Assembly (NCBI GenBank): GCA_012512055.1
Contig: JAAZEW010000106.1
Coordinates: 1-5,004, forward strand
DNA length: 5,004 bases
Source of the DNA: Bacillota bacterium
GTDB taxonomy: Bacteria; Bacillota_G; SHA-98; UBA4971
Direction: 5' to 3'
Below, piece after piece: positions 1,836-5,004 of the stretch. A program made the position numbers and the translations under genes. How positions within the stretch are numbered: position 1 is the stretch's first letter; every line of letters starts with the position of its first letter. The notes under the pieces were generated by a model. The model worked only from the letters and a program-made list of their open reading frames with translations, ran no database searches and had not been told where the DNA came from.

Positions 1836-2075
1836 ATGCGGCCCGGGATGGGAGATTTCTTGCGTGTCGCTCTTGCTAGATATCCGGGAAAGCTAATAGG
1901 GACATTTCTGGGATTAATCGTCGGGCTGGTTATGGTGATTGCAGGCCCTATTGCCGGACTTTACTTGGCTGTTTGCATAGGAGCAGGCTACCTTGCCGGT
2001 AATTACGTGGATCGGGGAAGAAGACATACAAAGGATATTTTCCTGGAAGACTTTCTCCCGCCTGATGAAGGCTGA
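1836..2075 (+). CDS. DUF2273 family small membrane protein
   Basis: This predicted protein of about 79 residues has two closely spaced hydrophobic helices, roughly residues 19-38 (KLIGTFLGLIVGLVMVIAG) and 39-57 (PIAGLYLAVCIGAGYLAGN). A charged tail follows (DRGRRHTK...EDFLPPDEG). The N-terminal RYPGKLIGTFLGL and the central Gly-rich turn match the DUF2273 pattern. These proteins are usually encoded beside Asp23 and AmaP in Bacillota, and their function is unknown. I infer that it belongs to the same membrane-proximal complex or stress module. The start is uncertain. ATG 1836 has AGGTG at 1824-1828, 7 nt upstream, and gives the usual family length. ATG 1803 (11 residues longer, after AAGGTGG at 1793-1799) and ATG 1848 (four shorter) are in the same frame. 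The extra 11 residues, Lys-rich with no family similarity I recognise, argue against the longest form. The TGA at 2073-2075 overlaps an ATG in the nusB frame. Confidence 0.82.
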   Translation: MRPGMGDFLRVALARYPGKLIGTFLGLIVGLVMVIAGPIAGLYLAVCIGAGYLAGNYVDRGRRHTKDIFLEDFLPPDEG

Positions 2076-2092
2076 TGCGGAACTGGGAGGTT

Positions 2093-2099
2093 AGGGGGA
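2093..2099 (+). promoter_or_regulatory. Ribosome binding site that favours a TTG start for nusB
   Basis: AGGGGGA lies 5 nt before the TTG at 2105. It is a better-placed site than the weak AAGG at 2067-2070 in front of the overlapping ATG at 2075, and this is the main sequence reason for choosing TTG. A second purine stretch, GGGAGG at 2085-2090, is 14 nt from the TTG. Confidence 0.5.
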
Positions 2100-2104
2100 T
2101 TACT

Positions 2105-2512
2105 TTGACAAGGAGGGATGCGCGAGAAGCAGCGTTCATTGTGCTTTTTCAAGTAGATGTCGGACGAATGAAACCTGAAACCGCCATTTCGACCACACTA
2201 AGCGACAAGGACGCCGGAAGCCGAAATGTCGATTACATTCACCGTGTCGTTCTTGGAGCCCTCGCGAACCTCGAGTCTATCGACGATACCATTTCCCGCC
2301 TTGCCATCGGTTGGACGTTGGAGCGGATGGGAGCGGTAGACAGGAATCTTCTCAGGCTTGCGGTCTATGAGATACTATTCCTTGACGATATCCCCATAAA
2401 TGTAGCGATAAATGAGGCGGTGACCCTCGCCCGGAAGTTCGGTGATGAGGAGTCATGGAAATTCATAAATGGCATTTTAGGGAAGTTGGCCAGGGAGACG
2501 AAAGAAGACTAG
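2105..2512 (+). CDS. nusB: Transcription antitermination factor NusB
   Basis: NusB pairs with NusE (ribosomal protein S10) on boxA RNA and supports antitermination of rRNA operons. With the TTG start it has 135 residues, normal for the family. The N-terminus then becomes MTRRDAREAAFIVLFQVD, which fits the usual M-x-R-R-x-A-R-E-x-A-F opening and the RNA-binding Arg-rich start. The C-terminal core is clear: DYIHRVVLG near residues 43-51, then W.LERMGAVDRNLLRLAVYEI near 70-90. After it come DDIPINVAINEAVTLARKFG and the closing FINGILGKLA. The alternative is ATG 2075, which overlaps the previous stop as TGATG and adds ten residues with no family counterpart; coupled initiation there cannot be excluded. 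The TAG stop is immediately followed by the xseA ATG. In many relatives folD sits between nusB and xseA; here it does not. The family call is very secure and the start moderately so. Confidence 0.95.
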   Translation: MTRRDAREAAFIVLFQVDVGRMKPETAISTTLSDKDAGSRNVDYIHRVVLGALANLESIDDTISRLAIGWTLERMGAVDRNLLRLAVYEILFLDDIPINVAINEAVTLARKFGDEESWKFINGILGKLARETKED

Positions 2513-3754
2513 ATGCTTGCCGTATACTCTGTGTCTGAAATAGGTAAATACATAAAAGCCCTGGTAGAGAGTGATGACTTTCTTGCCGGTGTCTGGATAA
2601 AAGGTGAGGTCTCCAATTTCACCCTGCATTCATCAGGACATATGTATTTCAGTTTAAAGGATGAGTTCAGCAGGCTGAGATGCGTGATGTTCAGGTCGCA
2701 AAACTCTCGCCTTAAGTTCATTCCTTCCGACGGAATGTCGGTATTCGCATACGGCGCTATAGGGATGTATGAGAGATCCGGCGATGTTCAGCTTTATGTT
2801 GAAGACATGATGCCTTCCGGAACAGGTTCCTTGTATCTGGCTTTCCTTCAGCTCAAGGAGAAACTGGATAAGGAAGGGCTTTTCTCGCCTTCCAGGAAAA
2901 GGGAGATTCCAAGCTTCCCCAAAGTTGTGGCAGTGGTGACTTCTCCCACAGGGGCTGCCGTACGTGACGTAATCACAGTAATCAAGCGGCGCGCGCCCGG
3001 TGTTACCGTTCTTGTCGTCCCTGCGCTGGTTCAAGGTGACGGTGCTCCTGACAGTATTGTGCAGGCTCTTGATTTGGTGAATCGGGCCGGTTTCATCGAT
3101 GTTGTCATTGTCGGACGAGGCGGGGGCTCAATTGAGGAGCTCATGGCATTTAATGATGAGAGGGTCGCACGGGCAATTGCTGCGTCGAGGGTTCCTGTAA
3201 TATCCGCCGTAGGGCATGAGACAGATTTCACTATCGCCGATTTTGTCGCTGACATGCGGGCTGCCACTCCGTCCGCTGCTGCTGAAATAGCTGTACCTGA
3301 CATGAGCGAACTGGGAAAGACCCTTTTTCAGCTCAACTTGCGTCTCACAAGTAGTATTCGGACGGTTGTATCTGACAATAAAGGCAAGCTCCGGTCGCAG
3401 GCCAGGTCGCATGTTTTGAGGTTTCCAATGGAGCTGACGAGAGACCACCGCCTGAGGCTTTGCGTTGCAGGAGATCGTCTTTATGCTTTTGTCAACGGTG
3501 TGCTTTGGAAAAGGCGTGAAGATTTCAGGGCTTTGGCAGGTCAACTTGAGGGCCTAAGCCCTTTAAGGACTCTCGGCCGCGGGTATGGTTTCATTAGAAA
3601 ACTCCCTGAGAAGAGTGTAGTGTGCAGTGTGGGACAGGTTGCGCCTGAAGAAGACTTGGAAGTGGTGCTTCAAGACGGGAGCTTTACGGCTACTGTGAAG
3701 TCTGTGCTTGAGGAGGAGGAGAGCGCGGGTGGAAAAGACAAAAGAGGATATTAG
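2513..3754 (+). CDS. xseA: Exodeoxyribonuclease VII large subunit
   Basis: XseA is the catalytic subunit of exonuclease VII, a cytosolic single-strand-specific nuclease that cuts DNA to oligonucleotides from both ends and works in repair together with several XseB subunits. The protein has 413 residues, in the normal range for Clostridia. Residues 1-100 form the OB-fold DNA-binding domain, opening with VYSVSEIGKYIKALVE and containing KGEVSNFTLHSSGHMYFSLKD. The catalytic domain follows, with TSPTGAAVRDVI (143-154), GRGGGSIEELMAFNDE (201-216) and PVISAVGHETDFTIADFVAD (228-247). RAATPSAAAE at 249-258 carries Ala where the family usually has Pro (RAPTPS). A shortened helical region lies at about 262-345, and the conserved SPLRTLGRGYGFI at 349-361 ends the domain. 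The ATG directly abuts the nusB stop with no clear ribosome binding site, so coupled translation is likely. The last nine codons overlap xseB. A run of Glu codons near residues 400-403 is encoded by the same bases as the xseB ribosome binding site. Confidence 0.97.
   Translation: MLAVYSVSEIGKYIKALVESDDFLAGVWIKGEVSNFTLHSSGHMYFSLKDEFSRLRCVMFRSQNSRLKFIPSDGMSVFAYGAIGMYERSGDVQLYVEDMMPSGTGSLYLAFLQLKEKLDKEGLFSPSRKREIPSFPKVVAVVTSPTGAAVRDVITVIKRRAPGVTVLVVPALVQGDGAPDSIVQALDLVNRAGFIDVVIVGRGGGSIEELMAFNDERVARAIAASRVPVISAVGHETDFTIADFVADMRAATPSAAAEIAVPDMSELGKTLFQLNLRLTSSIRTVVSDNKGKLRSQARSHVLRFPMELTRDHRLRLCVAGDRLYAFVNGVLWKRREDFRALAGQLEGLSPLRTLGRGYGFIRKLPEKSVVCSVGQVAPEEDLEVVLQDGSFTATVKSVLEEEESAGGKDKRGY
3711..3722 (+). 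promoter_or_regulatory. xseB ribosome binding site embedded in the xseA coding sequence
   Basis: The tract AGGAGGAGGAGA includes AGGAGG at 3714-3719, 9 nt before the GTG at 3729, so it fixes the xseB start. The same bases encode consecutive glutamates in xseA. An upstream TTG at 3708, in the xseB frame, lies before this tract and would have no ribosome binding site of its own. Confidence 0.75.
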
Positions 3755-3974
3755 TTTTGAAGAAGCCATGAAGCAACTGGAGGAAATGGTAGACTCCTTA
3801 GAATCAGGAGCTCTCGGGCTTGAGGAATCCCTTGAGGCATTCGAAAAAGGGATGTCTCTTGTAAGAATATGCCAAAAAAAGCTGGAGAACGCTGAAACCA
3901 GAATCGCTCAGCTCATTGAAACAAAAGACGGAAAGCTTGTCACAGAATCATTTCGGGTTGGGGACGAGCCGTAG
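3729..3974 (+). CDS. xseB: Exodeoxyribonuclease VII small subunit
   Basis: XseB is the small, helical, non-catalytic subunit that assembles in several copies on XseA to form exonuclease VII. The predicted protein has 81 residues, matching the usual 70-85. It shows the family pattern: ISFEEAMKQLEEMVDSLESG (residues 9-28), then LGLEESLEAFEKGMSL (29-44) and CQKKLENAETRIAQL (49-63), an amphipathic helical hairpin with coiled-coil character. I chose the GTG at 3729 because a strong AGGAGG tract lies 9 nt upstream. A longer form from TTG 3708 would add only Arg-rich residues encoded by that tract. The gene overlaps the end of xseA by 26 nt in another frame, which suits coordinated production of a small subunit needed in excess. 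Its TAG stop shares a base with the GTG start of ispA. Confidence 0.94.
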   Translation: MEKTKEDISFEEAMKQLEEMVDSLESGALGLEESLEAFEKGMSLVRICQKKLENAETRIAQLIETKDGKLVTESFRVGDEP

Positions 3975-4846
3975 TGGAGAAGACTGTAAATGATTTGAAA
4001 TTGATGATAGACACAGCGCTGGATGCTGCCATCCCTTCATCCGATACACACCCTGAACTGCTTCACAAAGCCATGAGATACGGGGTATTTCCAGGCGGTA
4101 AGAGGATCCGTCCGCTCCTTGTGTTGTCCACTGCGATGATGGTGGAAAGGGTGAGGCGCGGAGACTCGGCGCGCCTCAGGCAAATACTTGAGCGAGGCAT
4201 TCCACCTGCAGTTGCCATTGAGCTAATGCATTCATACTCTCTTATCCATGATGATTTGCCGTCTATGGACAATGATGACTTTCGGCGAGGGCTACCTACC
4301 GTTCATAAGGCTTTCGGGGAGGCGGAAGCGATCCTCGCAGGGGATGCCTTGCTCTCTCTTGCGTTTGAAGTAGTCTCGAAAGAGGAAGCCTATGAACTAA
4401 TGGGCTCTCTGACTTCAGTTAAGATCGCATACGAACTGGCGTCAGCATCAGGAAGCCTTGGTATGGTCGGTGGACAGGTTATGGATATCTCTCCGGTTCA
4501 CTGTGATATCGGAGTGGAGTACACCGAAAAAATGAGCGATCTGAAAACCGGTGCCCTGATGAAGGCTGCAATCAGATGTGGCGCAATCGTGGCGGGTGCA
4601 AGCAGCAATGAGTTGAAAATTCTCACGCGTTTTGGGGAATTGTTCGGGCGTGCGTTTCAAGTTCGAGATGATATCTTGGACTTCCACGAGGAAGGCCTTT
4701 TGACATTCTCCCGAGTGTTAGGGGTAGAAAAGGCAGAATTGTATTGCTCCAGTCTTTTCTCTTCCGCTATTGACATTCTAAAACCTTATGAGAAGCAAGC
4801 GGAAGAACTCCTTTGGCTTACCACGGGGGCTATCGGGTTTGGTTGA
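3974..4846 (+). CDS. ispA: Farnesyl diphosphate synthase (type II polyprenyl synthetase), with a shortened region after the second Asp-rich motif
   Basis: IspA condenses dimethylallyl and isopentenyl diphosphates to geranyl and farnesyl diphosphate in the cytosol, feeding undecaprenyl and quinone side-chain synthesis. The 290-residue protein shows GGKRIRPLL (41-49), a first Asp-rich motif DDLPSMD (93-99) and FRRG (103-106). It also has GGQVMD (166-171), KTGALMKAA (191-199) and a second Asp-rich motif DDILD (232-236). Tyr88, five residues before the first motif, and the two extra residues inside that motif are features of bacterial type II FPP synthases. Two things are odd. The loop after DDILD, which normally carries the GK...GxD...GK segment with two diphosphate-binding lysines, is about 14 residues short: only FHEEGLL separates DDILD from TFSRVLG. 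The C-terminus ends GAIGFG instead of the usual basic tail. About ten extra residues precede the first motif. The frame is intact, so this is not a simple frameshift. The GTG start overlaps the xseB stop as TAGTG. The family is certain; full activity is not. Confidence 0.93.
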   Translation: MEKTVNDLKLMIDTALDAAIPSSDTHPELLHKAMRYGVFPGGKRIRPLLVLSTAMMVERVRRGDSARLRQILERGIPPAVAIELMHSYSLIHDDLPSMDNDDFRRGLPTVHKAFGEAEAILAGDALLSLAFEVVSKEEAYELMGSLTSVKIAYELASASGSLGMVGGQVMDISPVHCDIGVEYTEKMSDLKTGALMKAAIRCGAIVAGASSNELKILTRFGELFGRAFQVRDDILDFHEEGLLTFSRVLGVEKAELYCSSLFSSAIDILKPYEKQAEELLWLTTGAIGFG

Positions 4847-4871
4847 TGGCAAATTTCGCATATGATATAAT
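4843..4871 (+). promoter_or_regulatory. Sigma-A-type promoter with extended -10, upstream of the putative OLE RNA
   Basis: TTGATG at 4843-4848 (four of six matches to TTGACA, and overlapping the ispA TGA stop) is followed after exactly 17 nt by a perfect TATAAT at 4866-4871. TG at 4863-4864 makes it an extended -10. Transcription should start near 4878. The nine bases TGATATAAT are identical to those of the promoter after accC, and the spacer length is the same. The boxes are seen directly; activity is inferred. It would give the non-coding region downstream its own transcription in addition to read-through from the operon. Confidence 0.72.
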
Positions 4872-4877
4872 CAAGTT

Positions 4878-5004
4878 CATCAGGGTAGGTGGTGCAGTAT
4901 TCTAGTCAGCGCCTCCATCTTTGAAGGCGGGCCTAAAAATCCGTCAAGGGCACATCGATGAAGTCCCTGGTGCCGGCTGCCGACGCCCAGTTGGGGGTCG
5001 GTGC
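4878..5004 (+). ncRNA. ole: Putative OLE RNA (ornate, large, extremophilic), 5' portion, truncated by the window edge
   Basis: OLE is an RNA of roughly 600 nt found mainly in extremophilic and anaerobic Bacillota. It forms a membrane-associated ribonucleoprotein with OapA and other proteins, and its loss affects tolerance of short-chain alcohols, cold and magnesium. The call rests first on position: OLE genes lie just downstream of ispA in a cluster with accC, DUF322, nusB, xseA and xseB, exactly as here. Second, no coding sequence fits: a Dxs or TlyA N-terminus is absent and the frames are broken. Third, there are compact hairpins. CGCCT 4910-4914 pairs with AGGCG 4925-4929. GGCAC 4949-4953 pairs with GTGCC 4970-4974. 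CCGAC 4980-4984 pairs with GTCGG 4997-5001, with CCC/GGG stacked inside it. The 5' end is estimated from the promoter and the 3' end lies outside. My recollection of the conserved OLE 5' sequence agrees in general character but could not be checked by alignment. Confidence 0.8.

Follow-up and report, generated by a model that had tools for sequence, protein, structure and literature searches.

The 5′ segment of an OLE RNA gene downstream of ispA in an uncultured class of Bacillota

What is encoded in the bases that follow ispA at the end of the window, the whole 5,004-nt stretch of DNA analysed here? A reading made from the sequence alone, referred to below as the sequence-only reading, had proposed that they form the 5′ end of OLE, described in section 3 of PMC12265935 as an abundant RNA of ~600 nt in a protein complex, and had called for a search with the Rfam OLE covariance model. 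When this search was run on the window a single match exceeded the curated cut-offs. This was RF01071 (OLE) at 4873–5004 on the forward strand, with a score of 126.1 bits (E 7.5e-34) against a curated gathering cut-off of 50 bits. The match covers model positions 1–133 of 616 and is stopped only by the end of the window, and a permissive scan of 4700–5004 gave no other Rfam family at E up to 1. On covariance-model grounds, the last 132 bases of the window are a bona fide 5′ segment of OLE RNA, and the proposal was borne out. It is highly probable that 4873–5004 constitute the first fifth of a full-length OLE gene of an uncultured Bacillota, with the functional steps carried over from other species. 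The segment is a further example of an already known RNA class, genuine but expected, from a lineage that was probably already within the 2024 GTDB survey. For the window's contig, the rest of the OLE RNA and oapA are known from relatives only. The features of the window are collected in Table 1.

Table 1. Positions of the features discussed in the text, numbered from the first base of the window.
Feature	Position	Strand	Basis or remark
nusB, conserved neighbour	2075–2512	+	
xseA, exonuclease VII large subunit, conserved neighbour	2513–3754	+	
xseB, exonuclease VII small subunit, conserved neighbour	3708–3974	+	
ispA, polyprenyl synthetase, 290 aa, without the GK motif and loop after the second DDxxD	3974–4846	+	
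Predicted sigma-A type ole promoter	4843–4871	+	−35 TTGATG 4843–4848, 17-nt spacer, TG-extended −10 TATAAT 4866–4871
ispA stop codon TGA inside the −35 box	4844–4846	+	Same overlap in 13/17 class loci
OLE RNA 5′ part, model positions 1–133 of 616	4873–5004	+	126.1 bits against 50; ungapped identity 131/132 to L004 and 130/132 to L002
P1 5′ strand, GGGUAGGUGGUG	4883–4894	+	3′ partner outside the window; pairing computed in 44 loci
P4 hairpin with conserved A-rich loop at ~4932–4939	4926–4945	+	6 pairs, 100% of cells paired, 4 pairs invariant
Palindrome CATCGATG in the P4a region	4953–4960	+	Sequence; third base variable among relatives, palindrome not strictly kept
J4a/5 and P5 5′ strand, putative 5′ half of the OapC-bound kink-turn region	4957–4969	+	Position inferred; alignment conservation; PMC9723947 section 5
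P5.1 hairpin, 15 model pairs, loop GCCCA at 4985–4989	4970–5004	+	6/15 pairs with changes on both sides; 95.5% of cells paired

The description of the segment as non-coding also held, in that no forward-strand ORF of at least 40 aa is listed after the end of ispA at 4846 and the relatives have no conserved frame. Open frames do occur on the opposite strand, one of 40 aa at 4880–5002 of the window and one of 167 aa antisense to OLE in the related locus L001 (8895–9398, minus strand). The latter prompted us to consider an antisense protein over OLE, which was rejected as the frames are inconsistent among relatives. With 100 base shuffles per locus, antisense stop-to-stop frames over OLE passed the 95% level of the shuffles at 5/17 class loci and at 1/12 others, and sense frames did so at 1/17 and 3/12 respectively; one of the 12 others, L059, yielded no sequence. 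We read these frame counts as indicating that no conserved gene lies over OLE.

Upstream of the segment the window holds accC, Asp23, nusB, xseA, xseB and ispA; dxs, which completes the known OLE context, was seen in the relatives only. The gene order given for the locus in the sequence-only reading was confirmed, except that its list lacked the AmaP-like and DUF2273 genes between Asp23 (DUF322) and nusB. In the 13 family loci the order is identical, running accC, Asp23, AmaP, DUF2273, nusB, xseA, xseB, ispA, OLE, oapA, dxs. The order ispA, OLE, oapA, dxs is found in 17/17 class loci, the four non-family loci being short and showing just this part. The Asp23, AmaP-like and DUF2273 genes, at 752–2075, make up a small cell-envelope/alkaline-shock set before nusB, which is present in 13/13 family loci.

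A single contig of 2,238 bases is the source of P0001, an IspA 99% identical to the window's. The sole locus returned for IspA was L001 on contig DGZL01000163.1 of Firmicutes bacterium UBA4981, where IspA is 82% identical. This locus carries a complete OLE at 8888–9524 (637 nt, model positions 1–616, 487.8 bits), followed by a 212-aa protein (oapA) that scores 27.9 bits for CNNM against a cut-off of 28.4, and then by dxs, tlyA, nadK and argR. By our reading a further ORF of the locus is recN. In L001 oapA (9540–10178) starts with TTG, 15 nt past the OLE match, and at its other end it runs into the listed dxs ORF, which starts at 10144. Because L001 continues into a full OLE, oapA and dxs, and because this order is found in 17/17 class loci, a dxs or tlyA gene starting directly after 5004 of the window's contig is very unlikely. 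OLE itself was found in 13/13 family genomes and in 17/17 class genomes (445–499 bits, positions 1–616) and, with stricter filters, in 182 of the 249 genomes of a phylum sample; in each survey it was found in none of 14 control genomes.

The claim that the segment is preceded by its own promoter agrees with a predicted TTGATG-17-TATAAT. In a search of 305 bases with 10 of 12 positions matching, this one was found against 0.2 expected. The pattern TTG-17-TATAAT is kept in 18/18 sequences (the window and 17 class loci), with the sequence of the spacer itself changing. The overlap of the ispA stop codon with the −35 box is missing in L008, L055, L056 and L057. The Rfam match begins at 4873, and a start ~7 bases past the −10 box would lie at ~4878, which is where the segment began in the sequence-only reading. 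Among the loci outside the class, the best pair has an exact TATAAT in 20 of the 29 with upstream sequence, a raw count to which we attach no weight. In Halalkalibacterium halodurans the OLE cluster is reported to be transcribed as a single polycistronic RNA (PMC12265935 section 3), so that a predicted promoter of its own in this class is a modest addition. A fixed-distance promoter whose −35 box takes in the ispA stop codon, a feature of the class here, is not mentioned for full-length OLE RNA in the sections of the papers covered. Among the papers listed in our literature search, and in the sections covered of PMC10898510 and PMC12054373, nothing on an OLE promoter, a transcription start or an isoprenoid link was seen, and we do not claim that these are absent from print.

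The segment lies codirectionally between ispA and oapA with a promoter in front, which would also suit a 5′ leader or riboswitch-like regulator of oapA and dxs rather than a free-standing RNA, and the 15 nt that separate oapA from the OLE match in L001 mean that some transcripts may carry both. We nevertheless consider a leader very improbable. In the relatives the match extends over all 616 positions of the RNA, helix P1 joins the two ends of that RNA, no second Rfam family was detected in the region, and OLE is described as an abundant RNA within a protein complex, as noted above. Pairing of P1 was computed in 44 of 47 loci. The window is not in this set, nor are L059 (no 5′ flank), L087 (no anchor) and L081 (anchor misplaced). 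Across the 44 loci P1 is 92.2% paired. Double-change cells number 102, where shuffles average 27.5 and never exceed 42; counted by pairs, 9 show a double change, and the shuffle maximum is 9 as well. For the 17 class loci alone there are 10 double-change cells (shuffle maximum 8) in 4 pairs (shuffle maximum 5). We took the register that paired best, shifting two loci by one base, and such double-change counts are inflated by the relatedness of the loci. In the structure line of the Rfam OLE model the first 53 and last 21 columns are unpaired, so that P1 is unscored there, yet it pairs in the relatives.

Since the window contains just the first 133 of the 616 positions, one could also imagine a decayed or truncated OLE remnant keeping the 5′ part only. 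Compared without gaps, however, the 132-nt segment is nearly the same as two intact copies, in L002 (which is on the same contig as L001) and in L004 (Table 1), while over the last 300 nt of ispA before the −35 box the identity to the window is ~80%, namely 241/300 and 243/300 respectively. In both, the OLE segment is better conserved than the adjoining ispA coding DNA. The other class loci have 104–127 of the 132 positions identical, and L003 only 85, owing to an insertion. With 17/17 class genomes matching positions 1–616 as well, a remnant is in our judgement very improbable too.

The sequence-only reading also held that the segment is structured, and had pointed to three hairpins. Folded as a single sequence the segment gives −51.1 kcal/mol with a z of −1.83, and 10/200 shuffles were equally good; this is not unusual and by itself is weak evidence. 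Because this fold is unremarkable, the hairpins alone are not evidence. What stands above chance is the covariance-model score and the covariation, and through these the segment is indeed structured. The P4 and P5.1 hairpins are supported. Two further hairpins of the predicted fold, at segment residues 8–52 and 75–96, are absent from the Rfam structure and the first of them would occupy the P1 strand. Covariation was followed in an alignment (A1) of the window with 46 of the 47 fetched OLE loci, L059 being omitted as its contig begins inside OLE. Over the 47 rows, window included, 96.8% of the P4 and P5.1 cells are paired, and changes on both sides occur in 7 pairs and 23 cells. Not one of 500 shuffles equalled the observed value in any of the five measures, and slid versions of the structure pair at 29–51%. 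One P5.1 model pair is unpaired in 24/46 distinct rows, among them the window, which has G-G. By these counts P1, P4 and P5.1 covary, though for P1 not every measure beats the shuffles. The unremarkable fold would agree with hairpins that arose by chance in an ordinary 3′ untranslated region of ispA, an explanation already refuted by the E-value of the OLE match, the compensatory changes and a conservation above that of the adjacent coding DNA, and to which we give practically no weight.

The window retains the L4 loop, the P4a region, J4a/5 and P5.1. In published cryo-EM models the A-rich loop of P4 is a dimer contact (PMC12265935 section 4; PMC12286853 section 5). From the published location of P4a (PMC12265935 section 6) it is possible that the palindrome CATCGATG is a candidate docking site for OapA. 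A pattern search for kissing of the P5.1 and P6.1 loops, which hit a wrong place in several rows, gave a mixed picture, with GCCCC accompanied by AAGGGC in 3 rows but AAGGGC found together with GCCCA in 2.

The relatives were also searched for the protein partners of OLE. Using tblastn with the L001 OapA, a match after OLE was found in 17/17 class loci and in 30/30 loci from elsewhere in the phylum, these being the best-scoring 30 of the 182 phylum loci, with E 1.5e-24 or better. OapB was sought beside infA, where the usual gene order places it. In G001 this place is taken by a protein of 98 aa, which in the PDB matches OLE-associated protein B (7k9b, E 6.6e-8) and nothing else; a homologue is found at 16 of the 17 class infA loci, that of the query counted, with none at the infA locus of L105 (G015). 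In NCBIfam OapA is unnamed and OapB gave only an L14e match below the cut-off; the PDB comparison was used for OapB instead. The L7Ae family, to which OapC/YbxF belongs, has one member in each of the 17 class genomes, which by family alone could be YbxF or YlxQ. Ribosomal protein bS21 is present in 16/17, with none found in G005. A CNNM search returned one protein in each of 11 class genomes, over the Pfam cut-off in 2 and below it in 9, and none in 6. The coordinates place each of the 11 immediately after OLE, so that these are OapA itself. Up to E 0.001 the class genomes, 17 in all, gave no MpfA-type or CNNM protein besides OapA. MpfA/CNNM magnesium transporters are the proposed protein counterpart of the OLE particle, and this search result for the OLE-bearing class fits the published anticorrelation of MpfA and OLE, as given in the sections of PMC11332333 covered.

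Compared with full-length OLE of H. halodurans and Clostridium acetobutylicum, the window shares the sequence and structure of positions 1–133, the A-rich L4 and P5.1, and its relatives share P1, the place before oapA and the genes for OapB, an L7Ae-family protein and bS21. One difference is in P5, where a pair that is U-A in 28/29 aligned outside loci is C-G throughout the class, as judged by eye, the window carrying the C side. OLE variants 1 and 2 of the TANB77 and RF39 clades (PMC11332333 section 5) have the conserved core in common with the window. As far as that section describes them, these variants have P7 and P8 short or missing and are largely without OapB and OapC, whereas the relatives of the window match the full 1–616 and have OapB and an L7Ae-family protein.

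In the sections covered of PMC12265935, PMC9723947, PMC12286853 and PMC12054373, OLE dimerises through A-A pairs of L4 and kissing loops, OapA holds it at the membrane, OapC binds a kink-turn by J4a/5, and the RNA supports tolerance of stress and Mg2+. By analogy, the sigma-A promoter overlapping the end of ispA would give a ~630-nt transcript from ~4878, besides any upstream read-through. This RNA would close on itself through P1 and pair with a second copy through the A-rich loops of P4 and the loops of P5.1/P6.1 and P9. OapA, the product of the next gene, would keep it at the membrane, and OapB, OapC (at the kink-turn of J4a/5) and bS21 would bind it. The membrane particle so formed may help against stress and metal-ion imbalance, replacing an MpfA-type transporter. 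Protein binding and stress function are here transferred from other species, chiefly H. halodurans.

The neighbouring IspA is itself altered. After the second DDxxD the window protein reads DDILDFHEEGLLTFSRVLG, the usual GK...D...K loop being missing. This loop normally holds a lysine that contacts the allylic diphosphate; our literature search on this lysine of IspA returned nothing. In a count scripted for GK, the motif is missing in 17/17 readable class IspA sequences (16 loci and the window) and present in 24/24 OLE-linked IspAs outside the class, with six outside loci lacking a recognisable IspA upstream and the L054 fragment uncounted. Most class members have the stretch deleted, and L055 and the L054 fragment carry an unrelated stretch instead. 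The aspartates of both Asp-rich motifs are invariant in 41 aligned rows. The AlphaFold model of the window IspA has a pLDDT of 91.9 and resembles solved synthases with TM-scores (by query) of 0.81–0.88 among the 50 matches listed, and in NCBIfam the protein scores 258.5 bits for FPP synthase, under the cut-off of 275. Given the confident model and its match to solved synthases, the window IspA is most likely an active but altered synthase.

The IspA of the class is the sole PF00348 protein, and so the sole trans-prenyl synthase, found in G001–G005 and G007, six of the seven genomes G001–G007. G006 has two such matches, G008–G013 have two to four and G014–G017 three or four, all counted in draft genomes of unstated completeness. 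A cis-prenyltransferase (PF01255), an enzyme that requires an allylic primer such as FPP, is present in 17/17 class genomes. The loss of GK is probably one change in one lineage and is therefore statistically uninformative about OLE. That ispA and ole of this class form one evolutionary unit, with the activity of IspA depending on or reporting to the OLE particle, we regard as very unlikely.

OLE ranks with the largest and best-conserved RNAs of bacteria. The segment adds an OLE sequence from an uncultured class in which OLE is present in 17/17 genomes examined, and the survey of this class also yields a conserved predicted promoter, covariation of P1, and the partner genes of OLE without an MpfA-type protein. 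The loop-less IspA encoded next to OLE is a concrete oddity that lends itself to testing, and a dependence of its activity on the OLE particle, if true, would tie OLE RNA directly to isoprenoid synthesis.
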